Below are positions 16-43,032 of a DNA stretch of 64,000 nt, piece by piece; the stretch's first letter is position 1, and every line of letters starts with the position of its first letter. The DNA is from Branchiostoma floridae. Its lineage: Eukaryota > Chordata > Leptocardii > Amphioxiformes > Branchiostomatidae. A model generated the notes under the pieces. The model was not told the DNA's origin. It searched no databases and worked only from the letters and a program-made list of their open reading frames with translations. The translations under genes were made by a program, and so were the position numbers. The stretch spans positions 4,072,786 through 4,136,785 of the forward strand of contig NC_049994.1 in the NCBI RefSeq assembly GCF_000003815.2. Reading direction: 5' to 3'.

Positions 16-3000
16 CTTGCTCTTTCCAGTCTTGTGGCTCAATGACAAAGCGTCGCCTGATCTTCAATGACTCATTTGGAACCTTATTACCCTTATAACG
101 ACAGGTGTAAGTCCCGAAGTCATCCAACTTTTCCATGGTTATATTGCACCAGAGGAAGGAGACTACAGTATCCAAAACCCTGAATCTTTGCTTTATGAAC
201 GTTGCCTTATGGTGGTTGTCGTCTTCAGTAATCTGTGAGAATACATAATAGTACACTGTCATAGCATGCAACTGTAGACAAGAAATTAAAAAATCTCATA
301 CCTACATCAAATATTTCAACTTTTTTTAAAATTTCTTACCGCCATAGCCCTAAACGTTAGTGATCCTCAACTTCTCTTCCTTAATCAACCCCAGTTATCT
401 CCCTCCTACAAGAGGTAATTTGTCTTAACCACATTCTATAGTCTACACCTCTCTACCCTCAGGAAGGGGGTGTCGGTCTGATAAGGTGGTATCTCACTGA
501 ACTTGCGCTTCCGTCACTGCGGGGTTCGGAGATTAATTTCAGAGCTAAACACCGAATTTTATTACGTCTTTTAAGTCGTAACGTTACTCTTACATATTAC
601 GCAATATCTAAATTATGAGAATCGGCGAAAATAACACAACAGTGACGCAGTGAACGAACCCCGCAAGCTTGACGCAAGTTCAGTGAGATACCACCTTAAT
701 TTAGAGAGATCCACACTTACCCTTTGTCCATTTCGATACCAGGACAGCTCTGCCACATCGGTATCTGCCACATCGATGTCTTGAACATATTCACAAGGTA
801 AAGAAAAGGTCCAACCTAGCGCAGAGGGGACTCCTACATGTAACATATTTGATATGATATTGTCTGACGAACACACAACCTTAAACAATTATTGCTATAT
901 TGCCTACAAACGCATTTAATTCTTTATTCGGAAATGTTAGCCTCTACCAGGCTTCGTGGATCGGTGGTCTAATTGTAGAAATTGGACAAATAGAGTTTAT
1001 AGCACGCTAAGGGAGTTAGCCGGCCAGAAGAGTACGTTTCCTCACCACAAACGGATGATAGAACACTGACCAAATAAGGTATGAACAGTACTAGTGATTA
1101 ATCAATCATTCAAGCACCAACGTTACCCATTGTACATGTGCCTGACTTAAAAATAGTTGTACTTAAAACAAAACTGTACAAGAAACGGAGACTAACGCAA
1201 AAAGACTATCGTCTGTGATCACTTCATGATAACTTACGTTTTCGGAATTCAAATTGCCAAGGGAAGATGATCTGGAACGTGGTGCTTAGGCGTTCCTCCC
1301 TAACAAGTCAAGTACATTACGGAAAAGATATCAAATATTTTGTCTCTCAATAGTTAATTTCTATTTACATTGAATAATTTGTAGCAATATGTAGTTTTCC
1401 ATACATGATTGAAGAATGTCTTATTTTTGTAGTGGAAGGAAACAATGATAATCACACAAATAGTTATGTAAATAGTAGGCATCCTTCCATCTTTACAGAT
1501 GATGGTAGCTCTCTGCATGGAGTTATGGCGGCTGTTTAAAAGTACGTCATCGAAATAATTCAGAAAAGGATATATGTGTCACATTTACAAAAAAAATCAG
1601 GAAATGATATATGTGTCACATTTACCAAAAAAATTAGGAAATTATATATGTGTCACATTTAACAAATATGGTACACATAGACATACCCTTCTGGCAATAG
1701 GATTTTAACATCGGAAGCATCTCGAAGAGGGAGGCCATTTTTCTTCAGAAGACAGTCGTAAACACCATAAGATGATGCGTTTTTGATGTCTATCTCAAAT
1801 GTCGCTAAGACTTTGTCAAAGTCTTTATCATCTGAGGGATTGATCTTGACTTTCAACCGAATCACCTGAAAAACAAAAGTCCAATTTCTCTTTAAATGAC
1901 GACCATAAGATGATTACTGTTTACATGTGTTATAATTCCATGTATCTATCAAACAATAAATAAAAAGCATGTAGGAAATGTCAAACGGATGTACGTAAAG
2001 CTGAAAAAGCTCTGCAATACGTTGATACATCAAGAAACTTCGTCATTGGCATCAATTAAGACAAGTAACCAAAATGTATTATTCTTCCCGAAGTGACTGG
2101 ACAGATCAGAGAAGAAATGCACAAATAGGTTTGAAGACGCTGTCTTATGTTTTCAAAATAAAAGAACTGGTGAAAACCCCTTCCGATATATTTTTAATGA
2201 CTCATTACCTACATGTACACGTTTTCCGTTCAATCTCACGAAAACTGCATAACGGTCGTCTTTTTCGCCGTGTTGGACAAGAAAACCACATGTGTGGATG
2301 ACTGTTGTGTTGACTGGAGTGATGACTGTAAAGGTAGGTGTGTCAAATAAAAATAATAATTACATGCATTATGGGGCACTACTGTAACCTGTAAGTATGG
2401 CTAACATCATGCAGCATCGGTCTCTTTTTCTAGTATTGTCTAATTTTTACATCATAACCCTGTGCATGTGTAAATGATGTCTAGTAACAAACTCAAGATT
2501 AGAATATCCTTAGTAACCCCACAAGTAGTTGTGCAAAATACTGTCTTAAAAGCAGTTGCAGCACAACCAGCACCATGCTTGTAACGTCCAAACAGACTAT
2601 ATAGAAGTTTCATCAGTGACTCATCACTAATGATTTTTATCAAAGGATACTTTACAATATATGATTATATATCCTAGCATAAGATTGCAAATCATAAGTA
2701 AATGTTATAATATACAATGTTTGAAAAATCACAGTAAACACACCTGAATACGGCTCCAAGTGTACGTATGTTTTGTTGTCAAATCTTTTTTCGATGAACC
2801 ATGACTGATTAATACAAGCACCATGTCTCTGTCGTATCACGCATTGGTACCGCCCGTACACGTCAGACGTTGTACTCAGAGAAAAATTGTTCTCAACATA
2901 GTATATATGTAGACGGTCCCGAGACGGTAAAGATACATTCCTTGACGCCGCCTGTAGTATAATAAGGCACAAGAATGTATTTCAAAAGGAGCATTTTCTC

Positions 3001-6000
3001 TTGACCAGGGCTAGAATTAACAGTGTGTTTTATTATTCCAAAGGTGCTGCAATCGCTAGTATTACGTCAAACGCACCTCAGTCTAATAGAGGGTTAATAA
3101 CCCGCCTCGGTATGTGTATCACAATACCTTGTCATTTGCTTTCACCACGCTGATGTTATTTGGTAGTCACAGCAAATGTAGGTTCGTGTAAAAACAAAAC
3201 AAAGAAAAAGACAACTATAAAACAAAGAAAAGTACTAATGAAAAGAGCCCACTGCATTACGTATACATAATGGATGAGTCATTAATTGTAATATTTGAAT
3301 TCTTGAGATTTTCGGTTCACCACTCGTGGCACTTTTATGGCGTCACGGCGTCATAATAACCCATATAAAATAAAGAGCCTTGACGTTCGTAGGGCAATCA
3401 CACAACTCAGAATTGGCTGTCACAAATTAAATATAGAAACCGGAAGATTCCAAAAAATCCCTATTGACCAGAGGGTTTGTCCATTCTGTCCAGAGCTAAT
3501 CGAAGACGAATATCACTTTATGGTTGTATGTCCCAAATATTCCGATATACGCAATTCTCTATACAGAAGGCTGTCATTTTGTACACAAGGATTTATCCAA
3601 ATGGACCTGAAGTGCAAATTCAGCTACATAATGACATGTGACAATCCCTGCATGGCAGATATAGGAAAATATATCAAAGAAGGTTTTGACATTAGAAATT
3701 CCCCAAATGATTGTAAAAGCCTCCAATGATTGTAAGAAACTTATCCCATACTGTACTCCTGTATTAGTTAGATAAGCCCTAAGTTAAGTTATAGCACTGT
3801 AGTTATGTAGATGCCATACTTTGTACCTCGTACAATTGTTGTGCAATAAAGTTATCTATAAAATGGGGACTTGGTCAATGTCATCTATCTATATGATAAT
3901 GGATAGTAATACCTCACCTCTTTTCCATCCTTGGTAAGCTGGACTTCCGAGTTGTTCCATGATGGCAACATCCACAAATCACATGAAAACTGAACTTGAT
4001 CTGCATTCAAACTCCAGGCCGGTTGTCCAACAAAGGCTGAAACGACAAAAGTTCTTTTGATTATTTGTTGTTCTTTTTTTTTTGTGGTGAATCCAAATGA
4101 TTGATTTTCAAGTGTAATTACGTTGGCACTGTGGAAAAAACATTACAATCCTTACAACGCTTTTGAACTAGTCCTTCTGATTCACCGCAAACTCAATTCG
4201 CTCCAAACAGTTAACTATGCTAAACGAGTTATCCTCTTCAGACGTTTTTCACAAAAATGCCCCTTCTATCCCAAAACTATTCGCTAGGGGGCCCAGACTT
4301 ATGGCACTTCTTCCTGAGTTAAAGAGCTATCTAACACCTAAAAATCGTGGCACTTGCTTGTTTAGAACGCAAGATAGCAAAACCGAAAGTTGTGCTGTAG
4401 TATCAAGAGAAGCCGCTAGGGGGGCCAAAATCTGATCATTTCCAGCTTTTATCACACCCCACCTACACACCAAGTATGAAACCAATCCACCGAGTCGTTC
4501 TTGAGATATCTTGTTCACACACACACACGCGCGCAGGGTAAAACGTAACCTCCATGAATATTTCATGGAGGTAATAAAAAAAAATGCAAACTGAATTCTT
4601 ACCTTCTGGACGACCTATGCGTAAAGGCTGACCCGCTTGGAAACTTTCCAGCATTGTCCCGTCTATACAGTCAGCCACATGTTGCTTCATCACACAGTGA
4701 TAATCTCCGAAATCTTCTACATCATCAACGGATATCTTTAATGATGCGTTGAATGCGTAGCCATCTGCCTTTACTGAAGTGGTTGAAGTCACCTACAGGA
4801 AGATTTTTAATAAATCATTTTATTTAACCAATTCGTGAAGAACTGTATTAAAGACGTTTACACACTGTGTACAGCTGATGTATAAGATTCCATAGTTGTA
4901 CAACGCAATAAAAGATAATGTTGTGGGAGGAAGTATAGAAGATACATAGAGACGTAACTCTTTTAGATGCCACGTAACTATAGCTCTTATAACATATTCA
5001 TCACCCCTCTTACGTATCCACTATTAGTACGTCCATACATGTAACGATTCAGTAAGATAATAATGTTTTCACAGCTCACCATCTTGTTGTCCTTCAACAG
5101 CATCATTTCACACAAACCCGTATCGCATGGGCAGCAGTCAAAGCAAAATACGAGACATGTCACTGCAGTTTTGCACTGATTGTCCAGCTTACGGTGCACA
5201 ACTACAGGCCAATCACGTTCCTCAAGATCTGGAAACAACAATGGAATGATGAGAATAGTTATTTGCATAATTTGTATTCGACGATGTTTACATTCACTTA
5301 ACTTCCAAAGCTACACGTATGAAGTTCCCGTTATTTGCCAGACTATGGATTGTAGAAAATATCAATACAATGCACCCATACCGTTTAGAGTTACACTAGT
5401 TCATCCACAAAGACACATACACACGTGCACATTCAAACACTACTGAGACATAGCCTTCTTTCCGAAATTAAAAACGATGTCCAACCACAGGCTTTACCAA
5501 ATAAAGCACAATCCATGATCTCTATTCTACTTTGCTTGCCGTATGGTTTCTTAATTGGTTTCTTAAGATGTCGATAGACATATCATGTGGATGATTCGTA
5601 CCGGTCGAACGACTTCACGATCTTGGCATTCCTTTTTGATGTCGTTATTTAATACCTTCAAATTTTAGATTTGAACTCACCTCCAAGAGTGAATGTGTCA
5701 ATAGAGGATATATGTGTCTCTCCTGCCTTTGTCAGTGCGTCACCATCGTAGATAGTAAGGTTACAGGAGTACACACCATAATCCGACTTATCGGCATTGC
5801 GAATGGACAAGATAGATCGGATCAGCAATGTGTTCTTGGGAACCCTACATGAATTGCTGATGTTTGAGGGAACTTTCACAACGTTCTCAGATATGGTAAT
5901 CCGACCATCCGATGTGTCTGATACCTATAAAGAGAGCATAAGAATAGGAATATAAGTCGAAAATTTACAACATCAAGAAATCCTTGACTAGAATTCCACA

Positions 6001-7358
6001 ACTTCGGACCTTTGCCAAATGATGATGTTAACATATGATAAACTGTTTAAGCGATAATGCAAATGAATTCATAATTTGCTTAACAACTACTGACATTTTC
6101 CGTACAAGTTACATATTTGTCAATTAAGAATTCAAGGTTTCATTGATGTGCAGAAGGCTATCATAAAAGTTACTCCGAGGCCCTGCTTTTTGCTTTTCTA
6201 ATCATTATAAGAGGCACAAGACACCGTGGAGAGGGACTAGAGTAGCCTCTATAGATAAAGAAATTAAAACAGTTACATCTTATCTTGATAAAGAAGGCTA
6301 TCTAGCATTTTCAAATCATTTATGCACATGACCCACCCAAAAGCATAACCTTATTGGCAAAGGTAAATAGTGCACGGTCTAGTGCACGACATAAAAGTGA
6401 ACTGTTACTGTGCTGTCAAAATTCTAAGGATGAATACAAGACCTTAATCAACTATAATTGTGCAAAGAATTTAGAGTTTAGCATTCCACATTATTTATGG
6501 CCCAATTCTGTTGATAAGCCTTTGCACTTACCCGCTTACTGTCTTTATACCACGCAAACTTCAACTTCAATCCGATATCAAGTGGATTGAATTCGAAATG
6601 ACATCTTAAATCCTGGCTCTGGCCAAGAACAACAAGTCTTGGTGACTGCGTGTCTATTGATTTTATACGACCAAAGTGCGAGCCTGCAATGTACAAAAAG
6701 CAAAATAAACTTCAAAAAGTAAGGTCATGCGACCGCTCTACGTGTCAATTACAGATCGGTACGGAATCAATACGTATGATCCAAAAATCTGAACTTTGCA
6801 TCTTCGACTTAGATCTTTGTGGTCACAATGACACTGCGCCCTCTTAATAAGGTGGTATTCTAACGTTGAACTGGAACGCGGTAATTTGAATCATACATTA
6901 CCACATATGCAAGACCTATAAAATGTACATGCAGAACGCCAAATATGACCGGCTCTGCTGCTACCTCTCTACTCGCCATTATGATTCAGCTTTCCCCTTA
7001 CAGACCTAGGCTGTTAACCCTTGTCCTGCTGTGGATTTACTCACCTTAGCTGGTTAATAAATCAGATCAGTACAACATAACCTATTCTGTACTGCTGCTG
7101 CATATTTACTTCCCCAATTGCGCTTTGCTCCGGTGTGCTGCATTTAAGTGAGAAATGCCATAAACCCATAAATATACGAGTACAGGACCAACATTCAGGC
7201 AATATATATGTGCATCCCGTATACATACAGGATCAGGAGTTAAACTCACCGGTACCCTCCTTTCCAGATGGACAGAATGTCATTCGAGCAGCTGAAGCTA
7301 CCGTGACAATTGACAAGAGAATGGTGGCAAAGACAACAAAGCACTTCAAATCGGCCAT
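16..7358 (-). CDS. Receptor gene 1: five-Ig, IL-1R-like TIR receptor, 3' end outside window (partial)
   Basis: Predicted type I membrane receptor. Exons in transcript order: 7250-7358, 6532-6683, 5681-5924, 5080-5228, 4603-4792, 3918-4036, 2744-2951, 2219-2325, 1687-1865, 1238-1299, 721-833, 16-232. Exon 1 encodes a signal peptide beginning MADLKCFVVFATILLS; an in-frame ATG at 7376 could add six residues. The remaining exons encode five Ig-like domains, each with a Cys in its first exon and a YxC motif (YGVYSC, FGDYHC, VYGRYQC, YGVYDC, FGTYTC) in its second. Exon 10 is a 62-nt linker. All junctions have GT/AG sites and phases matching genes 2 and 3. The stalk, membrane and TIR exons must lie left of base 1, so the TIR is inferred from the paralogs. 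Exon 8 uses a modest GTACAT donor. Confidence 0.82.
484..696. mobile_element. MITE with ~24-bp terminal inverted repeats (gene 1 intron 11)
   Basis: The left end aggtggtatctcactgaact is inverted at the right end, so the termini form inverted repeats of about 24 bp. TA dinucleotides flank both sides (482-483 and 697-698), as expected for a TA target-site duplication. No transposase is encoded. A related end (aaggtggtattctaacg) occurs at about 6847. Confidence 0.8.
1569..1663. repeat. Three-copy ~40-bp tandem repeat
   Basis: Three direct copies of a unit built around atatatgtgtcacattta, separated by A-rich spacers (caaaaaaaatcaggaaa and variants). It lies just downstream of gene 1 exon 9 in the transcript, within intron 9. 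Confidence 0.85.
3337..3729 (+). mobile_element. Non-LTR retrotransposon ORF2 C-terminal fragment
   Basis: The 130-aa open frame carries the Cys/His-rich C-terminal region seen after reverse transcriptase in many LINE proteins: ITQLRIGCHKLNIETGR, then RVCPFCPELIEDEYHFMVVC and P-Y-x-x-x-R. It sits inside gene 1 intron 6, opposite to the host gene, and lacks the catalytic RT domain, so it is a 5'-truncated insertion. The clade (RTE, CR1 or other) is not decided from this fragment. A plausible 3' end with aataaa lies near 3845. Confidence 0.7.
4110..4575. repeat. Partial copy of a dispersed AT-rich repeat family
   Basis: This shares long stretches with 24,650-25,022: a ctaacacc(t/c)aaaaat block, the reaches around gctaggggggcc, a short CA microsatellite, and the terminal palindrome cctccatgaa/ttcatggagg. 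The open frames here are repeat-derived and match translated frames of the other copies. It lies in gene 1 intron 5. Confidence 0.75.
7250..7358 (-). CDS. Gene 1 signal-peptide exon
   Basis: Coding exon 1. It encodes a hydrophobic leader (FVVFATILLSIVTVASA) followed by a short Cys-containing segment (MTFCPSGKEG). It ends in phase 1 at a GTGAGT donor. Genes 2 and 3 have equivalent exons ending AVCPPGKDG and TVCPEG, so the CP(S/P)GK-like motif after the cleavage region is a family feature. Confidence 0.85.
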
Positions 7359-7690
7359 CTTGACGAAGCCGATCATAGCAAATGCCAAGGGGACAAATTC
7401 CGCGTTTGTCGGGCAGGTTAAACTTTGTACCACTCATCTGTGTCAGAGTCCAAGCCACTCCCAGTGCTATTTGTTCACCTCGGATGTAATGTATTACTTG
7501 AGTTTAATCATGTTTCTATTTAACCCCATATGATCCTTAATATAACCATAATCATAGTAATCAACAGGTTTGAAGTTGTTGAGCGTTTATAAACAAGTGC
7601 ACAAATGGGTGCAAACGGCAAATTTGACAGCCATGTAAAGTTTGTTTAGTGAGTCATTCAGACCTTTGTCACCAACCAATTGTTATTAGT

Positions 7691-7700
7691 GGAAAGCACC
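7691..7700 (-). promoter_or_regulatory. Rel/NF-kB-like site upstream of receptor gene 1
   Basis: On the gene strand this reads GGTGCTTTCC, matching the NF-kB consensus GGGRNNYYCC at nine of ten positions. It lies 333-342 bp upstream of the ATG. Genes 2 and 3 have the same or a near-identical motif at almost the same distance. Function is inferred. Confidence 0.45.
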
Positions 7701-9074: not shown

Positions 9075-9080
9075 TTTATT
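9075..9080 (-). terminator. Candidate poly(A) signal of receptor gene 2
   Basis: AATAAA on the minus strand, about 620 bases past the stop codon. The surrounding block is conserved beside gene 3, where the hexamer is changed to AATAAT. Another AATAAA at 9489-9494, about 210 bases past the stop, is an alternative. Confidence 0.45.
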
Positions 9081-9700: not shown

Positions 9701-10281
9701 TCAGTCAGAACCGTTACTGGGAATATTTTGCCTTTGACGAAGTACAACATCATCTCTTTCCAGAGAGTCAGTTGGGACACCCCCATTAGAATCTTCAATT
9801 GCAAGTACCTCCACCTTTTCCTTCTTACGTTCTTCTTCAATACCCTCATCAAGTGGTAGGAATGAAGGTCCCAGCCACTCGTGCAAATTGGCCCAAAACC
9901 TTTCCCTAGCCATAGGTTCAGTCCAGTCCAGATATGTACGCATAGCTAGACCTCTTGGTATCTTACAGTCATCGTATTTGACGACAACCACACAATTTTC
10001 TCTTTGGTCAAGCTTTCGCTGGAAAGTAAGGGCCAGTTCATGCATGCACCATCCACTATTGATAAAGTTTTTGGACATGACCAAAATCACCTTGCGGCTT
10101 TGGTAAATGGCAGTAGCTATGTTAGTAAGTATCGGTTTACCTGCTTGAAAATCACGAGTATCGAGACATACTGTGTAACCGTTACTTTCAAGATTGCCTA
10201 ACAGATCCTCTCTAACCCAAGACCCATCCGAGCTGCTGTACGAGATGAACACGTCATAGTGGTGACTTCCTTCACTGGATC
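9701..10281 (-). CDS. Gene 2 exon 15: TIR domain and C-terminal tail
   Basis: One exon encodes the whole TIR. Box 1 is [15 protein letters not shown], box 2 region is [17 protein letters not shown], the C-helix has SGWCMHEL, and box 3 is RERFWANL preceded by RTYLDW. The WCxxEL and FW motifs are typical of Toll-like receptor TIRs. The tail after LGPSFLP is acidic and charged and ends [18 protein letters not shown]. The equivalent gene 3 exon is the same length (581 nt). Confidence 0.93.
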
Positions 10282-13200
10282 CTGGACAAAAGACACAATA
10301 CATTTTGTTTTGCTAGGTGTAACATAACATCAATCATAGCATGAAAGTTCATCTGTGTTGGCAAATGACATTATGGGTAAACTAATCTTTAACTAACCAA
10401 CACTAAATTAAGTTGGGACTTCTTACCCCACATTTTCAGCTGATTCCGTCAGTCTTGTTTATGGAATGGACCCGTTTACTGTAGCTTTCGAAACATATAA
10501 CTTCTGGAGTAGGTATGGGAATTCCATACATGAAATTTATGTAACCTATTAGTAACAAATAAAACGAAGCAAATGAATAGAAATTAAGCATATTGGGATG
10601 CAATGTACTCACTTTCCATTTGCTGTATGTTCTCCAATGTCACACGTATGTCTCTTTCTAAGAACTTCTCTTTGATCCATGGGCCGGTAGTCACAAAAAC
10701 TAGGGCTACTAACAGAATCACCACTACCTTGGCGGCCTCTGTGTAAGAGAAAAGAGTATATTCAAACAAGAATTATACTAACAAGTGCTTCTAAAAAAGC
10801 TGTGTCTTGGCTTGTAGTAGGGATATCGTCAGGAAAAAGTACATCGGCGCTTCTCCGGCGCTCATCAATAAACATGAGAATTGCAACAAAATAAGCAGAG
10901 ACAACCAAAACAAGTGCTTTAAAAAAAGCTGGCATTTTGCCAAGGTTTGCGTGTGTGAACGTTTTTTCTAGTTATTAGAATGTCATATGAATAGAAACAG
11001 AGTAACTAAACCTGATATGGTCGCATGGAGAGATTCACAAAATTTGCAAATGAGGCATGTCCAGGAATATGAAATTGATATGTTTAGTGAAACTTTTTGT
11101 CATACAGTATGCAATTTGTTCGACATAAAATCAGTTTCTTCTCGTGCAATTATGTGATATTGATGTTGAAGGGGCATTTTAAGGAAAGTTAGAACGACAT
11201 ATAGGCAGAGACATTACATGTATTATGTATTACATGTCTGTTCATTCATTCAAACATCCCAATTGTGGAAAAATTCAAAACTATAACAGAAAGTCCCAAA
11301 TGTTCTGGTCAAAAGACAAAAGTATTGTTAACTACTTCTTTAAGGTATCGGACCGGAGTTTCCTCTACGATTTCGGAGGTTGGCGGGCAGCCTCAGGCCG
11401 AAGGGCTACAGTTCCGCTAGCGAACGTAGGACGCGAAACTTAATCAATATGGCGGAAAGCCGTTTACTGCCTCTTTCCGACAAACCTATTCGTACCGTCT
11501 GTTGCCTCTTTATTTTGGGTAGAATATGTAGTAAAATCTTGATTTTTGACCCGAAACTATCATTTTTAACACTTTTTGGATCGAAGCTGCTTGGAAAAAA
11601 ACGAATTTTCCCAGGATAACGGCCTACGTGGTAGAGAAGCTAAATGCTTCATGTTTGTGTAAAATGAAAATAAAAAAATTCCATGTGATAACTTTTTTGC
11701 AATCTCCGATGACGTCACTTCTTCGAAATCGCATGAAAAACGCCGCTATTTGGGTCATCAGGCGAAAAAACCGCATCACCGTTGCAGCGGACTAATACAA
11801 AAATGGTTTCGCTGGCCGACCAACTACTCATCGCACAAAAACAATACAGAACAGTACAGGCTTTTCAGAAAATACGACAAATCTATGCTCAGCTATATCG
11901 ATCACCAAGCAATAGGGAGCAAAAGTTTGGGAGACAACAGCGCACTTCCGGCCTATTACACCACCCTTCCGGCAACTCCGGTCAGATTTGAACTCCGACC
12001 CGGAACCTTAACTTAATTAATGGATGTAAAAAAAAATAATAAAAAAGAAAGTTGAAAAAAAATTCCAGTTCACGGAGTCGAACCCGGAGCGTTGGATTGC
12101 GACGCGTAAGCTTTACGACTGAGCTACACTGCTTGTTGTAAAATAACATGTTTTAGCAGGTATAGAATTGTATGAATCTGTATCTATCGCAAACCTGGCT
12201 GCCTTCTCATCGGCAAATTTCTGGTGATTTAAGTATTTAGCAGCTAAACAAGCACATCACAAGAAAGAGAAATATGTATCCTTTATCTGCATGGTTAACT
12301 TTATCTTTAGGAACGGATAGGTTTCATACCTTCAGTGTGAAAAGATGCTAGAAATATACCGAACGTAGGTCTGGGAAATTTACTTCATTAACATAATTTA
12401 TGTCAGATGAATCTATGGCACAATAAACATGTTTTTGAAAACATTTTGACACACAATGAATATGCATTATTCTTTTAGACAAAATAAATGTCTTTTTAAT
12501 TTTGTGTAATTTGCGATGTATCTTTACCATAAATATAATGAGTTAAGGTGTTTATTTACTACACTGGACCACAAACAGTGACACACGCCTGAAAGAGAGT
12601 TTTAAAACTCGGCTGGGATGTACCATTGTCTAACTAAGCATTCAAATTGGGCAAGTAAAGAAGGGCCTTTGGAAGGGCCTTTGGAAGGTTGAACGTTGAA
12701 CCATTGATTGGTTGAAGGAAGAAACGGAGCACAGTAAAATGACATCAAATCGAATTTGCATGCATTGTGACAACACTGGGGATAGGTAAAATGTTATATT
12801 TACTTGTGGCAAGGGTATTGCTATCTTGTTAGTCAACTGTGTACATTAATGTAATTCTTCAATAGCGCATCGATGAGACGATACACAACAAAAGCTCCAC
12901 AACGATCTAACATAATGGGCGTATGCATAAAGCTTGAACAATGGTGATATATCGTGTCATATTGGACATCTGTTGCCAAGTGCATTCTTGTAACTGGCAA
13001 AACTGCTGTTGAAAAAAAGAAACCTTGAAACATGGAATCACTCCCATATCTTGCATTTCAATTTATTTTTGAAAGTGGGATGTGAAGAATGAGAATACCA
13101 AATATGTCAATGACATCAATGAAAGTAAACATTCAAATGACATCCTTAGCAAGTTAACTGTACCTGATAAAGCATTGTCGCGCACTCGAATGCCGTCAGC

Positions 13201-19177: not shown

Positions 19178-19251
<74 letters not shown>

Positions 19252-31000: not shown

Positions 31001-31350
31001 CTCCCACCTAATACAGTTCTGGCATTGCATAATTATGTTCTATCCATGCAAGTCTGGTTGGGCGATATCTCGGGGTGGGTATAAATTACCAAAGTCTATC
31101 TCGTAATCGGAGTATGAACAGAAGTACAATGCTAATCATGCCAGATAGACTGTATCCAGATAACGGTTCGGTCATGCAGAGGTACATATTTATCCCCGTG
31201 AATGGGAAGTAATACTTGAACAAGACAGTGTTAAATATAAATAAACTTACCGTCCTTCCCAGGTGGACAGACAGCCAATAGAGCTGATGTCGCCGTTGCA
31301 AGTGACAGTAGTATGGTCAGACACAGACTACAGCTCCTAACAGTGTCCAT
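9701..31350 (-). CDS. Receptor gene 2: complete five-Ig, IL-1R-like receptor with TIR domain
   Basis: Predicted type I membrane innate immune receptor of 892 aa. Exons in order: 31251-31350, 26725-26858, 25806-26055, 23530-23675, 23020-23209, 22206-22348, 21671-21887, 20238-20347, 19635-19819, 18979-19046, 14219-14331, 13546-13759, 13164-13265, 10613-10738, 9701-10281. The total is 2,679 nt with a continuous frame. Exon 1 encodes the signal peptide; exons 2-9 and 11-12 encode five two-exon Ig domains; exon 10 is a linker; exon 13 the stalk; exon 14 the transmembrane helix; exon 15 the TIR and tail. An in-frame ATG at 31377 could add nine residues. Five Ig domains exceed the three usual in the IL-1R family. 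By family analogy it should signal through a MyD88-type adaptor; the ligand is unknown. Confidence 0.85.
10613..10738 (-). CDS. Gene 2 exon 14: transmembrane helix
   Basis: Encodes [20 protein letters not shown], a single hydrophobic helix, followed by basic and charged cytoplasmic residues ([21 protein letters not shown]). The motif ERDIR(V/I)TL(E/Q)NI is shared with gene 3, which supports the boundary. Length is 126 nt, phase 1 at both ends. Confidence 0.85.
10770..13160. other. Gene 2 intron 13, unclassified sequence
   Basis: Mostly AT-rich with no convincing exon. About 11,340-12,050 is a repeat-like block with a CpG-containing start and gacgtcac motifs. A degenerate tRNA-like segment lies at 12,068-12,140. 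A short duplication (gaagggcctttg) occurs at about 12,660. Confidence 0.5.
12068..12140 (-). repeat. tRNA-like sequence, degenerate
   Basis: The minus strand shows TAGCTCAGTCG (box A-like) and GGGTTCGACTCC (box B-like) at tRNA-like spacing. However, the acceptor and T stems do not pair and the anticodon loop looks nine bases long. It is probably a tRNA pseudogene or SINE head rather than a working tRNA. Confidence 0.4.
13164..13265 (-). CDS. Gene 2 exon 13: extracellular stalk
   Basis: A short 102-nt exon with TTCTTCAG acceptor and GTACAG donor. It translates to a polar stretch, [17 protein letters not shown] and onward, linking Ig5 to the membrane helix. Phase 1 at both ends matches the 156-nt gene 3 exon at 35973-36128. 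Sequence similarity between the two is low, so support comes from phase, position and splice sites. Confidence 0.65.
13892..14122. mobile_element. Foldback MITE in gene 2 intron 11
   Basis: Arms of about 60 bp are inverted: the left has gtgtagccgatgt and ends aagaacacaatcccaaa; the right starts tttgggattgtgttct and contains acatcggctacac. The spacer is C-rich. No coding capacity. Confidence 0.75.
14915..16455. repeat. ~118-bp tandem array (about 13 units)
   Basis: Direct repeats of a unit containing tttagcttatatgttgccaa, then aaatgttgcgtatttctgtt, catacgacatgtttaatctt, a cgcgcagtttaagcgaac block and the near-palindrome ggggagacctcccc. Unit length varies about 112-131 bp. The outer units are degenerate and the central ones highly similar. 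It lies in the gene 2 intron between exons 10 and 11. Confidence 0.9.
16500..17540 (+). other. Segment between two tandem arrays, with an unassigned ORF
   Basis: Not repetitive like its neighbours. An open frame from 17061 to 17280 follows an acceptor-like ttttacag and reads [20 protein letters not shown] onward to a stop. A further ORF ends at 17026 (...[10 protein letters not shown]). An aataaa lies at about 17513. I recognise no family; it may be the remnant of a transposon whose ends became the flanking arrays, or unrelated intron sequence. Confidence 0.3.
17560..18535. repeat. 141-bp tandem array with an alternating two-unit pattern
   Basis: Landmark ggcacctaaacacacg recurs at 17835, 17976, 18117, 18258 and 18399, exactly 141 bp apart. 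Units are nearly identical but alternate between atggcaacttta and atggcgaattta, implying a 282-bp higher-order unit. Degenerate units flank both ends. It lies in gene 2 intron 10. Confidence 0.92.
18979..19046 (-). CDS. Gene 2 exon 10: small linker exon between Ig4 and Ig5
   Basis: A 68-nt exon with TTTTCCAG acceptor and GTAAGT donor. It translates in phase as [16 protein letters not shown] and onward. It is required to turn the phase-2 end of exon 9 into the phase-1 start of exon 11. The gene 1 exon (1238-1299) shares the TFQI core; gene 3 has a phase-compatible 65-nt exon at 37418-37482. Confidence 0.75.
19181..19319. repeat. (TA)n(GA)n microsatellite
   Basis: About 90 bp of TA repeats with two short interruptions runs into about 30 bp of GA repeats and a few GATA units. 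It directly abuts the SINE at 19322-19463, so it may have expanded from the SINE tail. Confidence 0.95.
19322..19463 (-). mobile_element. tRNA-derived SINE
   Basis: On the minus strand: box A-like GTGGCGCAGTCGGCAGCGCG, box B GAGTTCGAATCC, then a body with GTGCCCTTGGGAAAGGCACTT and TCCTCACTTTACTCAGGTG. The tRNA-like head and the shared body with 8291-8437 define a dispersed Pol III-type family. Confidence 0.8.
20640..21540. repeat. Unclassified repeat-like block in gene 2 intron 7
   Basis: AT-rich, with a homopolymer C run, several gacgtca motifs and a ccgccatcttgga segment near 21,180. It shows no coding similarity. It looks like a nonautonomous element or old insertion, but I found no clear ends. 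Confidence 0.35.
22001..22058. repeat. (CA)n microsatellite
   Basis: Nearly perfect CA dinucleotide run of about 58 bp with one early interruption, in gene 2 intron 6. Confidence 0.97.
23975..25022. repeat. Long copy of the dispersed attatgcaaat repeat family
   Basis: Begins with ctagagttcggcgacctcat and ends with the palindrome cctccatgacatttcatggagg. In between are many attatgcaaat/atttgcataat motifs, gctaggaggcccaaacttat blocks and a CA tract. The copies share boundaries, which suggests a nonautonomous element. It lies in gene 2 intron 3. Confidence 0.75.
25023..25420. repeat. Second, truncated copy of the same family
   Basis: Adjacent to the long copy and in the same orientation: agttatgcaaatgagatctg, atttgcataatcg, and an end resembling the related subfamily (aacataaccttttggtgaaag). 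Confidence 0.6.
26128..26562. mobile_element. Foldback transposon with internal repeats
   Basis: Termini caggggtgcctaagcatttgc are inverted at the far end. The interior is largely palindromic and built of short units (acgaatcactatgcgaaa and their complements). Identical TACTT flanks at 26123-26127 and 26563-26567 look like a 5-bp target-site duplication. It lies in gene 2 intron 2. The terminal CAGGGGTG resembles hAT ends, but the TSD is shorter than the 8 bp expected for hAT. Confidence 0.85.
27081..27677. repeat. Partial copy of the dispersed family, in tandem with the left arm
   Basis: Starts ctagagttccacgaccccat, the same boundary as 27679, and contains several attatgcaaat motifs. It breaks off where the next copy starts. 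Confidence 0.65.
27678..29033. repeat. Left arm of a ~1.35-kb inverted repeat
   Basis: Runs from ctagagttccacgaacacat to ccattctggcaaaggtaata. It is the imperfect reverse complement of 29,498-30,821 over its whole length. Internally it is three or four repeats of a ~250-bp block with attatgcaaatgag and ataccaaaaatcatga. Confidence 0.85.
29034..29497. repeat. Spacer of the inverted repeat
   Basis: 29,034-29,330 is a further partial copy of the repeat family ending aaccttcttggcgaaggtaat. 29,331-29,497 is unique AT-rich sequence. Confidence 0.65.
29498..30821. repeat. Right arm of the inverted repeat
   Basis: Begins ttacctttgccagaatggct and ends gttcgtggaactctagtttt, mirroring the left arm. 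Internal order of blocks is reversed, as expected for two head-to-head insertions or a foldback. Confidence 0.85.
31251..31350 (-). CDS. Gene 2 signal-peptide exon
   Basis: Encodes [20 protein letters not shown], then a short segment ending CPPGKDG, with a GTAAGT donor in phase 1. The 4.4-kb gap to exon 2 is filled by repeats. Confidence 0.82.
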
Positions 31351-34425: not shown

Positions 34426-35006
34426 TCAGTCAGTACCGTTACTTGGAATGTTTTGCCTTTGACGAAGTAATACATCATCTCTTTCCTGTGAGCCATTTGG
34501 ATCACCTCCACCAGAATCCTTAATCGCAAGCAGCATCTCATCCTCTTCTTCTTTATCTTCTCCTTCACCTAAATAACCTGTTGGAGATGGGGGTCCCAGC
34601 CACTCGTGCAAATTGGCCCAGAACCTTTCCCTCGCCATAGGTTCAGTCCAGTCCAGATATGTACGCAAAGCTATCTCCATTGGTATCTTACAGTCATCGT
34701 ACTTCACCACAACCACACAATTTTCCATTTGGTCAAGTTTGCGTTGGTAAGTAAGAACCAACTCATGCCAGCACCATCCACTCTTGATAAAGTTTTTGGA
34801 CATGACAACAATCACCTTGCGGCTTTGGTAAATACCAGTGGCAATGTTAGTAAGTATTGGTTTACCTACGATAAAATCGCGAGTATCCAGACATACTGTG
34901 TAACCATTACTTTCTAGATTACGTAACAGATCTTCTCTAACCCAAGAAGCATCCGCACTGCTGTACGAGATGAACACGTCAAAGCGATAGCTTGCTTCAG
35001 TGGATC
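34426..35006 (-). CDS. Gene 3 exon 15: TIR domain and C-terminal tail
   Basis: Box 1 [15 protein letters not shown], box 2 region CLDTRDFIVGKPI, SGWCWHEL, and box 3 [14 protein letters not shown]. By eye it differs from the gene 2 TIR at about 16 of 130 positions. The tail ends with the shared motif [12 protein letters not shown]. The exon has exactly the gene 2 length. Confidence 0.93.
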
Positions 35007-38000
35007 CTAGATGAAATATATACGATTGTTTTCAGAAGAACACACATTTTTACATAACAATGCGAGTATTGTAAGTCAGGAGGTTTCTCTAGACTTCACT
35101 TGAGACTAATAACAATTGATTATAGAGAACTATAATCGAAAAACGTACAAAGCTATACATGTACATGTGTGTATTTGTAAATATTTCGATGAGCCTACCT
35201 TCCCCAACAGCCTCCATATGATGAATGTTCTGCAGCGTTATGCGTATATCTCTTTCATCCATTTTCCGTTTGATAAACAGGAAACACAGGAAACACAGGA
35301 TACCAAGCGAAATGAACGCAACAGTGAGATATATAATTTCTAGCTGTAGCGATGACTGGGTGGCCACTGTAGAAATATAGAAATGATGCGCACAATAAGG
35401 TAAACATAAAATATCATTTACAGCTTCGAAAATGGATAATACTGACTAGTTCTATGTCACACTGCAGCCAGGTGTCACTGCTAACAGATACGGTCCCAAA
35501 GGTATTTACACAGTATCCAGTATTGCCCTGAGGAAGGTAACAAACCGTCACCTAAATGCCATTTTAAATAGATCATTGATTGTGTACAACAAACTTTGTT
35601 ATCTGGCGATCTAAAACCATGATGAATCGATACACGGAAGCCTTGTGGCGTTCCTAATCAGCTGAAACGTGGTGGGTATTAGGTGCAATATCTAAGTTAT
35701 GTTTTAATGGGTGTTCTTTGAAACGGCTGCAGAATCACCCATATTTTTTTCGGTCAACGTCAAAATATATCTGTGGTTTGCCCACGTCTGCCAACAAACC
35801 GTCATGCGCGTAGAAGTCTTCTGAAATCAAATTAAAAGACGTATAGAAATTAACTATAGCCGATGCCACATATCTGTTTGAATATCAAGCCAACGACAGC
35901 ACATTCCTACTTATTCATTACTTCATCACTTGTCAGTTGTTGTATAATGCTTTGTAACAAAAAGGTACTTACACGATTTCCAAAAAAGCGCCGTATCGGC
36001 AAGCTCACGTGTTACGTTCGACAGCTTTCCTGTATTTTCCATAAACTGTGGTACTTCATCGATTATGTATGTATGGCATGTATCAAGCCGACTTGCCAAG
36101 GAAACTGATCTGTTGTAATACATCTGTGCTGTAAAAAAAACCCAGAAGACATCACTTCTTACATATACTGCAATTAATCTATTTTTTTGGTACTTTAAAG
36201 GTATTTCTTATTCATTAGACGATTGTTAATGAGTTAGTTGTATAGACGTATGGTAGTCGAATATTGTTTACAATGTTGTATAATCATTTCAGTTTCAAAC
36301 ATTGCATTCTTGCGTAGGTTTTGATAAATGTAAAAAGACATGAACAGTCTGTTTAACGAATATCTAGGAATGAACTAACATATATCAACAGCTCTTTATT
36401 ACCTTGATCTGGCCAACTCTGTGGCTTCACGTAAAAGGTCTGGAGTGCTGTCATCGACCCGTTGGATTTCATGTCGTTATCTAAACGACACTCGTACTTT
36501 CCGTATGCATCCGCATGTTGAAGATTCACGGTGCACCAGAGGAATGAAGTCCAGTCATTCAGTTTCCTGAATCTTTGTGCTTTCAGGGATGTATGAGCAT
36601 CGTCATCTATTATCTATTGGACAAAGAAATCATCTGCGTCGATTGTATGCAATTATACCCGATGACATGGAAACTTGGGGCATAGCGGGGCTCACTAGAA
36701 TTTAAGAGTTGACATTGTGAGGTTTGTGGTATGACCGGTCGTAAAAACGATATCACTGCGAATTGGCAATACGAATTCAAGGTAAGCGACTAATAGCAAC
36801 TCTTTACAAAATAGTACAGAAAAACATAATGCCTTAACGTGGCATAACGTGCGCACTACAGCATGCTGGTCTAGATGTAACCGACCATGCACATTTAATG
36901 CAACAAATGGTAATAATCAGCTGCTAACTTACCTTCACACCATCGCGAAACCAGGCCAGGTGTGAATTTTTATTATTGTCTGTTGGTATGGTGTCTTTAG
37001 TTTTTGTGTAGCACGGCAAGTGCACAGAATACCCCAGTGACATCCGTAACACTACATAGAATACAAGTATTTTAGTCACTGCTAACTCCTAATTGATTTG
37101 CACAAAATCTTAAATACAGCACAGCGCGATACAAACTCAAATTGGGGAGTGACAGTCATCATTTCTGGAATCTAAAACACAATGTGCATTTAGCACATTA
37201 CCTGCACCAAAACGTTAGCGTAGACAACTATAATACATATGTGCATATTGCTGTCATGCTTTACTAAGTCAAGACACAATGTGTCAACATTTTTGCCTTA
37301 CACAATAAAAGAATATATATGTCCGGTATCTTTATCGAGTACGGAGATTGCTGCTTCTTAGCTCCTACGGCATGTTGTATTTAAATAGCAGTAAGATTTT
37401 GAATATTCAAGACTCACTTTCCGGAAATGTCCAATTTGTAATTGGTGAAAGCTGCATCATGTTGTCGTTACATAGTATTTGCCTGAAAAACAATGCATGT
37501 GAATTATGGATCGTTTGTTATTGCATTAGCACAAGTATTAACTGTTTAGATTCAATTTCTCTCATTTAACCAAAAAATGTCGGTTACGGTAACTTTCATC
37601 AGCCCACCTCTGATCCACGACCCTGACGACCGCTGTCATACCTCACTTCACCCCAGTAACGAAAAATATTGGATTTAAAAGATGAAAAGACATGTGGCCT
37701 ATAGAGAAATTCAGCTTGATATATGTGTAGTTTCAGTTTCTTACAATAGCTACAAGTGAGTCAGAGACATTATCAATTGCACGTTAGTTGAACCTCTGTG
37801 GAGTGAAGCGCCACATTGCCCTTGTTATTGTTAAGTTTTCGTGAATTTTAAAAAAAATCAAGTCCTTATCTGCATAGAATTGCATATTGCAAAGTCGCTT
37901 AAATTGCTACATATGATACGGTAAGACAGACAATTACAGCATTTGAATTTCCTAATTATGCAACATCATTTTGTTCCATACAAAGTCTCATTATCTGATG

Positions 38001-40538
38001 CTCTTATCATTTAACAAAATGGAATCATGGCGATTTTTTTTTCAAATAACGTGAGTAATACGTTTGTGAAGGTTAGACATCCAGGAATCGTTACAATTGA
38101 AGACGAATAAATCTTTACTTCTGGATACTTTATTTTTATACAGACGTTTCGGAAGGCGTCCGCCTTCCTTCCTCAGTGAAAAGAAAATGAAGACAAACAA
38201 TTTCTTGAAACAAGGAATAATTCTTATGTTCTAAATAAACAAAAAAGGTAACGGCTAAGGTGTTCTAAAAAACGTCTAACAAACGTCTGTATAAAAATAA
38301 AGTATCCAGAAGTAAAGATTTATTCGTCTTCAATTGTAACGTGAGTAATATTTCAATAATTTGTACTGCTTATCCTAACCTTATCAATTTGTGTCGTTTA
38401 CGTTGTACCCTCTTCGCCTGAATAAAATACTATTGGAAATAACGAAAATGAACATACGTTTTCGCTACAAACGTCTTGTGGATGTACATTTTCCAAAGGT
38501 GAAACCAAGGTTCGTCTCCGCTTGGATGTGGGAGACCGTCTTTCAACAAAACACAGTTGTAGAGACCGAAATAACTTGGATCCTTTACTTCTATTTCAAA
38601 ATATGCCGATACGTTTTTAAATTTTGTGTCATTCGTAGGATTCACCTCCGCACTGAGTCGATGAACCTGTAGAGATGTAATATCAATATCAATACTGGTG
38701 TCTCTTTCTACTCAACTTACTTGCTCTTAATTCGATTCACTACCAGAAAAAAACATTGTTAGACAAAAATGCAAAGTAAACATCTTTAGCAAAATAAAGT
38801 TTGTTAGCTTCTGGTGACTGAGTACCTACCTCATCCCCATTGAAAGCCATGGCAATCCCATATGTGCCCTCTTCTTTCTGATGCTCAACAAGAAAGTGAC
38901 AGGTACGGTTGACTTTTTGTTTGATCCAAGTAAGCCCTTCAAGGAAAAAGCATAGAATATAACATTGTCCAGAAAATAATCAATACGCACCAATGCTAGA
39001 ATTAGGAGTTCTTAAACGTACAATTTGGTAATAATGTGTTCGAACAACAAACTATAGAGGAGTATTCAAAAGTGTAGGCAACAGTACTCATTAGCATCGA
39101 AAACGTCGGGTATATATCCACTTGTTGTCATGTTTTTCACGTAATCGATGTCTTCAAAGTTATACAACGTAGGCATACAACATGTACGGGTACATCACCA
39201 TAAACCTTTGAAGGAAAGTACACTACAGGCTGGTCTGGCATCTCTTTCAGTGAAAGAAGTTAGATAACGGAACTGAAAGTCAAAACTTCCGCGTCCAAGA
39301 CACTGCATGTTGCAAGAAGAAACAATTTAACACCTTCCTATAGAACAACAGCACTTGATAGTATTAGGCTCATACGAACCTATTAGTGGTGTGAGGTAAA
39401 ATGCACTGTCATTTACAACTGCTTCCGAACTGACAATGTTGAAAAATGACTTCTTCATGCAGCTGTAGCCCTTTGGTTTTAGTAAGCACTCATATCTTCC
39501 ATAGACATCAGAAGTGACATTCAAGACAAACGAGCCCTCCACGATTTTGCGCCGGAACGCCAGAGATGCATTCAAGGCCATCTGTAAAACGATAGGTGTT
39601 GTTTCAAAACTGCTTTAGTCCTATGGTAAAAAAAAGTATGTCCTTTTTCTTAAAATTTGATAGCTACGAGGGGCGTTCAATAAGTATTGCCCCTGACCCA
39701 TTTCCCATAGCAGGAGATTAATGAAACTTGGCACATTTATTAGTCGTTCTCTACATAGGAACCACCCAGAGTTATGCATTTCTCCCATTGTTTGATGCAG
39801 CTCTGAACACCGTTTTTGTAGAACACCCCAGGTTGGTCCTCCAACAGATGCCTCATCAATGGCAGAAGAGGAACGACCAGGTCTGGGAGCTGTTTCCACA
39901 GACTTACGGCCATGTTTGAATTCAGGATGCCAGCGTTTTACAAGGTCATATGATGGGGCATCATCACCATCAGTTTCTTTCATTTCATCAAAAGTCTCCT
40001 TTGGTGTGCGTCCTTTCAAATACAAAAACCGGATCACTGCACGACACTCAACTGGCTCCATTTCACACCTGGTCCATTTCACACCTGACTCAGTTCAAAC
40101 ACCAGTAAATCAGAAACCACAATTAGTTGAGAACTGTTTTTTGCAACATACCCCATAGAGATATGAATTATTACACATGCAAAATTTCATCTAGCTCAGA
40201 CAACTGAAAGTGGTTTAGAGGCATTACTTATTGAACGCCCCTCGTAGATTAAAATAAAGCATGCTTAAGACTGTGAAAAAGAAACAACGCACCTTTTTGC
40301 CATCTTTTTCAAGTACGATTTCCCAAGGGTAAACGGGGTTTGTCAGGGATTCTGCGTATTGACAGGAAAACAGCACTCTGCCCGCTTTGATGGTGACTGA
40401 TGGATTCGTTTTGAAAGCTGAAAAACATAATAATCAAAATATAACAAAATATAACAATCAACAATATATTTCAATAATCAAAATTAATTGGTTTTGATAT
40501 TTTGCGTATCATGATTTGTAGTGTCTAAGATACCTCTC

Positions 40539-40580
<42 letters not shown>

Positions 40581-43032
40581 ATGTATATGACACGATACTA
40601 ATGTATATATATATATATAGAGAGAGAGAGGGGTATTTTGGACACTACAAATCAGGATACTCAAAATATCATAACCAATTAACCTTAATTATTGAAATAT
40701 ATTGTTATTTCCCTTCACAAAACGAAAACAGCTGACTACGCATTCTTCGTTTAAAGGAGGCAATTACACTACGTGACAAACATGGCTCAATTCAAAGAAT
40801 TCTAAAACGTGGCGACATACCTTTTGGGCGAGGCAGGTGTAGTGACTGTCCGTCGATAGACGTTTTGAACATCGTTCCTTCTGCACAATCAAGTACGTGT
40901 TGCTTCAATACGCAATCGTAATCCCCGAAATCCTCAGTGCCATTAATGGATACTTTAAAAGATGATTTGTAGATGTGGTCATCTAAGGATACAGAAGTAC
41001 TGGAAGCAACCTGTGGCAATGTATGTTTTGAATTGTCAGTTACACACAATCCAAGATAATGCAATACAATAGTATGTACCTATACGGTTCCATGAAAAAC
41101 ATTATGGTATATTTCTTTCAAACATTTTATCTTGCCATAATGTCAGCAGTGTACAGTAGCCTTTATTTTTGTCCAAACCCAATCTTCAATTTTTCAAAAA
41201 TTGGCTAAATATTTGGCTTGTATAAACCTTTTAGGTTTAGAAAATATTATTCACTTTTTAAGCATAAACAAAGATCTTGTCACAGTGATGATTTTTAATT
41301 GCAATTTCCAACCACAACTTGAAGAATAGGCAAAAGAACGTGACTGTAGCAACTTACCACCTTGCCATCTTTCATCAACACCATTTCACACGAACCCGTA
41401 GAACATGTGCAGCAATCGAAGCAGAGAACTTGACACATCAATTTCGCTTTACACTTTTTGGTTAGCTTAGCTATAGGCTGGGGATGCAAAGGCCTCAGCC
41501 AAACGTCACGAGGATCTGGAAGAAAATGATTTAGTGATCAAGCATCGAAATGTATATTCTCCTGGACTCAATGCCCAATTATATGGCTGGTATCTAAACA
41601 ACTAAACACTAAATACTGAAACATGCGGACGAACGAAACAACGAACGAACGGTGTGAGTGAATCCGGTGTCACATGGAATGCTATGTTTACTCACCGTTT
41701 AGCGTGAACATGTTGACAAAGTGTTTAAGCTCCCCTCCTTTCATCTTTGAAGATCCAGTATGGTTTAAAGTCACATAGCATTCGTACCAACCGTAGTCCG
41801 GCTTCTCAATGTTTCGTATTGACAAGATAGAACGGACAAGTGTTGTATTCTTGGGATACAAGCATGTGTGGCTTATATTTTGGCAATTGTCACAACGTCT
41901 TCAGAAACGGTAACTCGACCATCAGACGTGTTTGAGATCTGAAAAAGAATATTGAAATAAATTTCCGTAGTTTGCATATGGATGCTATTGGATGTGCAGT
42001 GGTGCTATATCTGTATTGTTACCAAAGTTATTTTTGCGGAATAATGTGTTGTTCACTTAGCCAAAGTTTTGGTCATTCTTCTCAGGGCTAGTTTTATTTC
42101 GCACTTCAGCTATATGTCGCTGCTGCACTGTGAATAATGTGGTGCCAAACAGTACTAAAATCTAAATGACGTGACTGAGACAAAGTAAAACCGATTTGTA
42201 TAGCATCGAGAGAAGATGACAGACGGTTATCGAGACGTCAGACTGTCAACGCAACATCGGCTACAATTCACATGATTTGCATACAAAGATTTTGTTATAA
42301 AGTGTTTTATCAGCCAGGCAACCTGTCAAAACTATTCACGTATATTCCATGTCTGGTAAAATGTAGCAGAGAGATCAACTGTTCTGATGAGACTTGAGGT
42401 AATAGATAACAAGCGTGCATTATATTCCTTCATGTTAAACAAATGGAGCAAACTTGCCATATATTTGTAAAAGAAACTAATGACACAGTATCCTATTTCC
42501 AAAAATAACATCATAGCCACCTGTCGATTGCGTTTGGTCCAAAACAGTTTCACTCCGGCATCAATATTGTCGATGGGAAAATGACATCTCAACTCCTGTC
42601 TTCTGCGTTCTCCTGGCAAGGGGTAGTTCAATAAAGAACCCCGACGAGAGGACAAACCTGCATTTTAATACAAGAGACATTAGACATCAGGTAGATCTAT
42701 TTTAAGCCTTACAATAAACCAGACTGTTGAGGTTGGTGAAGAATAAATTCTTTTTGTTCTTTGATTACATGACATTTCAAAGTAGCGAAGTTATGATGAT
42801 AATGATAATAGTGGGTATTATCGTATTTCTCATTCCAAAGTCAACCATATTTTCTCAATTTGAATTGACCACATTCAAGTTTCAACGTCCTACCGTATGT
42901 ACGTACTATTTTACAATGTATCACAATCAGCTAAATCTTCAACAACTAACCTTCAGGACAGACAGTCATTGAAGTTGACGTCACCATACTAGGTGACAGC
43001 AGCAAGATCCAGAAGAGCAAAATACGGTCCAT
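34426..43032 (-). CDS. Receptor gene 3: five-Ig TIR receptor with one-base frameshift in exon 3
   Basis: Same 15-exon plan as gene 2. Exons in order: 42951-43032, 42521-42657, 41696-41938, 41358-41515, 40821-41010, 40293-40417, 39380-39581, 38830-38936, 38458-38666, 37418-37482, 36933-37051, 36403-36613, 35973-36128, 35199-35366, 34426-35006. The signal peptide begins MDRILLFWILLLSPSM. The coding sum is 2,753 nt, one short of a multiple of three, because exon 3 lacks a base near 41,880 and meets an in-frame TAA. All other exons are open with good splice sites, so this is a recent lesion, a polymorphism or an assembly error. Without it the protein would be 917 aa. Confidence 0.82.
35199..35366 (-). 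CDS. Gene 3 exon 14: transmembrane helix
   Basis: Encodes LEIIYLTVAFISLGILCFLC, then KRKMDERDIRITLQNIHHME. The juxtamembrane ERDIRITLQNI motif matches gene 2. At 168 nt it is longer than the gene 2 exon, mainly before the helix. Confidence 0.85.
38061..38337. mobile_element. Foldback insertion with ~60-bp inverted ends and a 13-bp direct repeat
   Basis: cgttacaattgaagacgaat at 38089 is inverted at the right end (to 38341). The direct repeat aacgtgagtaata flanks the insertion at 38048-38060 and 38338-38350, resembling a target-site duplication. A related, degenerate left half occurs at 49,067-49,150. It lies in gene 3 intron 9. Confidence 0.75.
39667..40244 (-). mobile_element. Truncated mariner-type (SETMAR-like N-terminus) element
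   Basis: Terminal inverted repeats cgaggggcgttcaataagta and its complement are flanked by TA on both sides (39665-39666, 40245-40246), the Tc1/mariner signature. On the minus strand the interior encodes the paired helix-turn-helix region of a mariner transposase (AVIRFLYLKGRTPKETFDEM, then SYDLVKRWHPEFKHGRKS and PRPGRSSSA). The catalytic DDD domain is absent, so it is nonautonomous. It lies in gene 3 intron 6. Confidence 0.9.
40460..40706. repeat. Imperfect palindrome with (TC)n/(TA)n/(GA)n core
   Basis: Arms of about 75-90 bp are inverted around a microsatellite core: left has ttaattggttttgatatttt and gatttgtagtgtc, right has gacactacaaatc and aaaatatcataaccaattaa. It could fold into a hairpin of about 120 bp per side. 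It lies in gene 3 intron 5. Confidence 0.85.
41696..41938 (-). CDS. Gene 3 exon 3 (second half of Ig1), frameshifted
   Basis: Begins in frame with [16 protein letters not shown], then reads into TAA at 41873-41875. Shifting by one base restores homology (ISHTCLYPKNTTLVRSILSI, then YGWYECYV). The exon is 243 nt; paralogous exons are 244 and 250 nt, both with remainder 1. The missing base falls next to a short A run. Confidence 0.85.

Follow-up and report, generated by a model that had tools for sequence, protein, structure and literature searches.

The window, by which we mean the whole 64,000-nucleotide stretch of the Branchiostoma floridae genome analysed here, carries three neighbouring receptor genes on the minus strand, g3 (43032-34426), g2 (31350-9701), and g1 (7358 to -1982), arranged in tandem and following one common plan of 15 exons: a signal exon, five two-exon Ig units, a linker, a stalk, a membrane helix exon, and a TIR exon. 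Window coordinates are converted to genome positions by adding 4072785, with negative values lying outside the window on the same contig, C16. The exon models were obtained by comparison of open reading frames between neighbouring stretches, followed by splice-site scoring, and the genome searched comprised 513 Mb in 431 contigs. All 15 exons were modelled in each gene, the last three of g1 beyond the window. Further to the left, wholly outside the window, lies g0 (-14835 to -25866, minus strand), also modelled with 15 exons, and the array comprises these four complete-length genes and an additional cassette of a signal exon and a first Ig domain.

The first-pass annotation had described three genes sharing this 15-exon plan between positions 16 and 43032, and exon modelling recovers them on the minus strand with both ends reproduced (the last in-window exon of g1 ends at 16 and g3 starts at 43032), as well as the 892-residue protein of g2. 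The TIR of g1, which had been postulated, exists just beyond the window (C16:4070803-4071404, window -1982 to -1381). An array of three genes is ruled out by g0 and the cassette. The conceptual proteins of g0, g1, and g2 (904, 915, and 892 residues) contain no internal stop, and their exit phases are identical (1,0,1,0,1,0,1,0,2,1,0,1,1,1). Upon conceptual splicing, each of these three genes has a signal peptide, Ig domains, one membrane helix, and a TIR on a single frame, the signal peptide and membrane helix being called from hydrophobicity and by eye. The phase plan of g3 is the same apart from a one-base frameshift in Ig1b, where two frames continue each other, in agreement with the earlier statement that this is the sole departure from common phases. 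The membrane exon is positioned between Ig5 and the TIR in all four models, and paralogous exon matches between loci are beyond chance (E down to 5e-106 for the TIR and 4e-43 for Ig exons). At the level of gene models, the four copies, with their order, strand, and phases, support the proposed tandem cluster of Ig-TM-TIR genes with a common exon plan.

In g1, the signal exon (7250..7358) includes an ATG, a hydrophobic stretch, and a CPxGK motif, also found in g0 and g2, and ends with a phase-1 donor. It is followed by Ig1a (6532..6683) and Ig1b (5681..5924), a domain covered by the best stretch of the whole-protein Pfam Ig_3 match, and then by Ig2a (5080..5228), Ig2b (4603..4792), Ig3a (3918..4036, with a weak acceptor), Ig3b (2744..2951), Ig4a (2213..2325, with the acceptor at either 2313 or 2325), Ig4b (1687..1865), the linker (1238..1299, entered in phase 2 and left in phase 1), Ig5a (721..833, again with a weak acceptor), and Ig5b (16..232). 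The stalk (-296..-430), membrane (-965..-1120), and TIR (-1381..-1982) exons were modelled outside the window, and the last of them was also found in the TIR search.

In g2, the signal exon (31251..31350) is followed by Ig1a (26725..26858), Ig1b (25806..26055), Ig2a (23530..23675), Ig2b (23020..23209), Ig3a (22206..22348), Ig3b (21671..21887), Ig4a (20238..20347), Ig4b (19635..19819, weak acceptor), a linker (18979..19046) that is 83% identical to that of g0, Ig5a (14219..14331), Ig5b (13546..13759), the stalk (13164..13265, weak donor), the membrane helix exon (10613..10738), and the TIR, which occupies one exon with the stop codon (9701..10281; Pfam TIR_2 1.8e-24, TIR 3.7e-20). The corresponding elements of g3 are the signal exon (42951..43032), Ig1a (42521..42657), the frameshifted Ig1b (41696..41938), Ig2a (41358..41515), Ig2b (40821..41010, weak acceptor), Ig3a (40293..40417), Ig3b (39380..39581, weak donor), Ig4a (38830..38936), Ig4b (38488..38666, with the donor at 38488 or 38458), the linker (37418..37482), Ig5a (36933..37051, weak acceptor), Ig5b (36403..36613), the stalk (36009..36128), the membrane helix exon (35199..35366), and the TIR with its stop codon on one exon (34426..35006).

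Because the splice-site models were limited to GT donors and AG acceptors, all 56 introns (14 per gene in four genes) are necessarily GT-AG, and the sites of most Ig exons were filtered for the expected phase. When g1 was scanned without filtering (sites scoring >3), most of the sites found agree with the model, with no such site for some exons and some extra sites listed; the sole unfiltered acceptor of Ig3a is at 4128 (phase 2), as opposed to the modelled one at 4036 (phase 1, score 0.3). Donors with low scores are those of Ig1a in g0, Ig4b and Ig3b in g3, and Ig5b in g1, and low-scoring acceptors precede Ig2b in g3, the TIR in g1, and Ig4b in g2. Another candidate exon scored above the modelled linker of g2. 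The stalk exons, with 15-38% identity between genes, are the least certain part of the models.

Comparison of the paralogues reveals that the TIR and the ectodomain have diverged unequally. Protein identity of the TIR is 76-77% in all pairs and that of the Ig domains is 33-51%, with the exception of Ig3-Ig5 in the g0-g2 pair (65-79%). Synonymous divergence (pS) is 0.31-0.48 in the TIR and 0.58-0.77 in the Ig parts, again except for Ig3-5 of g0-g2 (0.28). The bootstrap ranges of TIR and Ig pS are separate in four of the six pairs (g0-g3, g1-g2, g1-g3, and g2-g3), and in the same four the TIR and the ectodomain differ at fourfold sites (p 5e-3 to 5e-6). Within the g0-g2 pair, pS of Ig1-2 (0.58) and Ig3-5 (0.28) have ranges that lie apart, and intron stretches are also alignable in Ig3-5, so that g0 and g2 look mosaic at this level of comparison; the fourfold differences (20/48 in Ig1-2 vs 31/98 in Ig3-5, p 0.27) do not support a mosaic there, and those of g0-g1 lean in the opposite direction (22/49 vs 36/52, p 0.016). 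Ka/Ks ranges from 0.14 to 0.28 for the TIR core and from 0.21 to 0.57 for Ig domains (in the 21 of 30 comparisons with finite Ks), and it reaches 1.13 in the membrane exon of g0-g2.

The best account of this pattern, as judged from the sequences, would be homogenisation of the TIR exon combined with exchange of segments. An alternative that we regard as a serious one, if somewhat short of an even chance, is that constraint on codons or a lower mutation rate, and not gene conversion, keeps the TIR exons similar at synonymous sites. Such an effect would agree with the confinement of similarity, in most pairs, to the TIR exon and a few flanking bases, with a GC3 of 0.38-0.40 in the TIR vs 0.42-0.49 in the Ig parts, and with the g0-g1 pair, in which the pS ranges overlap and the fourfold comparison of TIR and ectodomain is not significant (p 0.065); the separate pS ranges and the fourfold differences in the four pairs listed above speak against it.

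The additional cassette is located between g1 and g0. Its signal-like exon (window -3965 to -4037, upstream of g0) and its Ig1 pair (-9976 to -10082 and -10669 to -10876) have open frames and the splice phases of the family, and its Ig1 shares 42-49% identity with the other Ig1 domains, with pN/pS of 0.50-0.63. The cassette could be joined to Ig2 of g0, replacing the gene's own Ig1, the Ig1a exon of which has a weak donor by splice-site score; it could also be joined to Ig1 of g0, or it could be a relic.

Five two-exon Ig-like units were modelled in each of the four genes, and the whole proteins match Pfam Ig_2 and/or Ig_3 above the cut-off in all four. Nine individual domains, all from g2 (Ig1-Ig5) and g1 (Ig2-Ig5) and none from g0 or g3, were scanned separately. 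Ig1 of g2 alone clears the Ig_3 cut-off (31.7 bits vs 30). Isolated Ig3 and Ig5 reach best E values of 5e-4 to 7e-5 (in g2, Ig_2 with 4.4e-4 for Ig3 and 5e-4 for Ig5), under the cut-offs except for Ig5 of g1, which exceeds that of V-set_CD47 by 0.2 bits. Isolated Ig2 is marginal (best E 0.014 in g2 and 0.038 in g1), and isolated Ig4 has no Pfam match in either g1 or g2. The five Ig domains attributed earlier to the g2 protein are thus confirmed by domain search in the case of Ig1, with Ig3 and Ig5 falling below the cut-off, Ig2 marginal, and Ig4 unmatched. Ig2, Ig3, and Ig4 of g1 and g2 do not have the usual core tryptophan, although the two cysteines and the [FY]GxYxC end are kept; the profile of Ig4 resembles that of Ig2, and both Ig2 and Ig4 presumably adopt the Ig fold. 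At least 31 genomic matches to the g1 ectodomain were found (E up to 0.1), all of the 31 lying within the C16 cluster. None of the four array proteins has a match to leucine-rich repeats (LRR).

The TIR and the stop codon are on one exon in all four models, and Pfam TIR_2 and TIR are above the cut-off in all four proteins. The TIR is of the TLR type. Compared with solved structures, the profile of the four proteins matches TLR1 (1e-28), TLR2, TLR6, and TLR10 first, followed by MyD88 (from 1.2e-8), whereas TIRs of the IL-1R family, few of which entered this comparison, come close to the end of the list of 43 matches (IL1RAPL1 6.5e-4, IL1RAP 9.3e-4). An LRR-TIR gene from the same genome, used for comparison, ranks TLRs, MyD88, and the IL-1R family in the same order as the array TIRs do (TLR6/1/2 first, MyD88 from 6.5e-10, IL1RAP 5e-8).

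The search of the genome with the g2 TIR yielded at least 87 TIR places, the top eight rows of which have at least 56% identity over long matches, with the ninth at 42%. Besides the four array genes, the close kin are four TIR exons, three on contig C8 and one on C18. When a tree was built from 35 of these places, all of this genome and with no Ig-TIR or IL-1R sequence of other species, the eight family TIRs, four of them Ig-linked, grouped as a single clade (98/96), separate from 20 TLR-like rows (90/89), and LRRs are present in all eight of the TLR-like genes that were tested among these 20. The tree is compatible with derivation of the clade from TLRs as well as with a position next to them. 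None of the eight family TIRs has the BB-loop proline, which 13 of the 20 TLR-like rows carry; in the C18 copy the whole BB loop is absent. In the available text of PMC6224433, the same replacement of this proline by alanine is described for an amphioxus TLR, and the residue is linked to MyD88 signalling. Since the family TIRs do not have this proline, their use of MyD88 as an adaptor is uncertain. A C-terminal tail of the TIR exon, RDD..LRQR.NI, is found in all four Ig-linked C16 proteins and is absent from the two C8 relatives that were aligned.

The three C8 TIR exons are preceded on the same strand by different upstream exons, of F5/8 type and/or Sushi. At C8:25.00 Mb, the TIR has upstream of it an F5/8-type match, scoring 33.5 bits against a cut-off of 27.8, as well as two Sushi reading frames; at 24.93 Mb, a Sushi match was found in the near upstream stretch; and at 24.39 Mb, an F5/8-type match just under the cut-off (27.0 bits) accompanies a Sushi match. 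These relatives have membrane exons with phase-1 donors and tentative acceptors, followed by TIR exons with phase-1 acceptors, and one of their TIRs is closest among solved structures to TLR2 (5.2e-22, with IL1RAP at 4e-5). From this order and phase, each C8 exon set would be expected to form one gene. The C18 relative, whose TIR acceptor is low-scoring, has no recognisable ectodomain within the 1.5 kb examined. Long reading frames on the opposite strand, resembling non-LTR retroelements by eye, are interspersed among the exons of one C8 locus.

We consider it probable that the array encodes at least four type I Ig-TIR receptors with a TIR of TLR1/2 type, acting in the manner of Toll/IL-1R receptors and having an origin separate from the vertebrate IL-1R family. 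Each receptor would comprise a signal peptide, five two-exon Ig-like domains, a short stalk, a single membrane helix, and a TIR on one phase-1 exon, with the Ig and TIR exons expected on one transcript. By analogy with Toll/IL-1 receptors, a putative extracellular ligand would bring the ectodomains together, upon which the TIRs would assemble and recruit TIR adaptors, leading to the NF-kappaB pathway. Because the TIR is conserved while the ectodomains have diverged, one shared output with different ligands for individual paralogues is suggested. The receptors would have originated when a TLR-type TIR exon was joined to an Ig ectodomain, probably apart from the vertebrate IL-1R family. A fuller version of this reading, to which we give an even chance, is that such an exon was combined, within this genome, with two or more ectodomain types that are unrelated to each other (five Ig domains in the four genes of this cluster, and F5/8-type and/or Sushi domains in three genes on another chromosome), and that the Ig set, despite its resemblance to an IL-1 receptor, was assembled independently and diversified by TIR homogeneity and segment exchange, possibly also by an alternative signal and Ig1 cassette upstream of g0.

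The Ig domains of the IL-1R family are encoded by two exons each and its TIR by several. The two-exon Ig domains of the array and its Ig-TM-TIR order are features that would be expected if its members were true IL-1R orthologues in which the middle Ig domain was multiplied, taking the number from three to five. Profile comparison points in the same direction, with Ig2 resembling Ig3 (probability 95.6) and Ig4 (85.1), and Ig1 resembling Ig5 (92.5). The other seven pairs reach no more than 33.5, and one of them, Ig3-Ig4, at 24.1, speaks against such a multiplication; with four sequences per profile, multiplication of the middle domain is a hint only. We find this descent improbable in view of the TLR-like TIR and its single exon, and of the ectodomain profile, whose matches are Ig chains of a generic sort; the best 60 of 244 PDB matches include none from the IL-1R family. 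Pfam Ig_6, which we take to be the model built on IL-1R first domains, is matched neither in the four proteins nor in the genome search, where the positive control was likewise unmatched, and the high divergence of the ectodomains limits what the Ig_6 and PDB-chain comparisons can show. The assignment to the IL-1R family implied by the first-pass annotation is not retained, since the TIR has its best matches in TLR1/2, is encoded by one exon, and falls in a clade with Sushi- and F5/8-linked members; as a default, it was rejected on the TLR-like TIR and the generic Ig-chain matches. It is very unlikely that the Ig exons form genes of their own, distinct from those of the TIR exons, or that the array is largely non-functional, as might be read from the g3 frameshift, the weak Ig1a donor of g0, and the poorly conserved stalks, given that the exon order, strand, and phase plan are repeated four times, that the membrane exon always lies between Ig5 and the TIR, that the frames are open in three of the four genes, and that Ka/Ks is below 1 in the TIR and Ig comparisons with finite Ks.

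The array appears to be a new build of the known Ig-TIR kind of receptor, and not a set of clear interleukin-1 receptors. It shares with TLRs a TIR nearest the TLR1/2 type among solved structures, and differs from them in having an Ig-like ectodomain in place of leucine-rich repeats. With the vertebrate IL-1R family it has in common the Ig-TM-TIR order and the two-exon Ig domains. It differs in its five Ig-like domains and one-exon TLR-type TIR, PMC9020223 giving three Ig domains for the vertebrate family and reporting that searches beyond the vertebrates had identified no orthologue of IL-1. Among invertebrates, the accessible parts of the respective papers report Ig-TIR genes in anemones, citing the view that the combination arose separately from vertebrate IL-1R (PMC5094078), TIR proteins with IL-1R-like Ig domains in sponges (PMC6043800), and an IG-TIR category in molluscs (PMC4346834, PMC9334734). 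The array resembles these in its Ig ectodomain, membrane helix, and TIR; as compared by published description only, it is distinguished by five Ig domains, the fixed 15-exon plan, and the tandem arrangement, to which the kinship of its TIR exon with exons beside Sushi and F5/8 exons can be added. According to the main text of PMC2575513, nearly all TIR combinations of human and sea urchin are found in amphioxus, with 20 of the 28 being amphioxus-specific; given the breadth of that survey, the amphioxus Ig-TIR combination has probably already been counted. The five-Ig array, its exon plan, and the common TIR exon are not described there, supplementary tables aside, and no description of the array, its mosaicism, or the common TIR exon was found in the open-access texts searched.

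If the TIR exon was captured by different ectodomains, the IL-1R-like architecture has more than one origin, even within the chordates, and annotation of an invertebrate gene as 'Ig-TIR' should not imply an interleukin-1 receptor. The array would also be a compact case of a gene whose signalling part and sensing part differ in the pace of their evolution, and it supplies a concrete list of paralogues for tests of ligands and adaptors.

Several other elements are present in the window. An intron of g3 contains a reading frame with the helix-turn-helix of a Mos1-type transposase (39624-40094, minus strand; HTH_48 3.1e-7), and an intron of g2 contains a tRNA-Leu-like element (19387-19460, minus strand) that is possibly a tRNA-derived repeat. 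A plus-strand reading frame in an intron of g1 (3307-3729) has no Pfam match and presumably resembles the zinc-binding terminus of a reverse transcriptase from a retroelement. To the right of the array, a plus-strand open frame of 432 residues (54137-55432) matches at its end sperm-associated microtubule inner protein 4 (E 1.7e-12).
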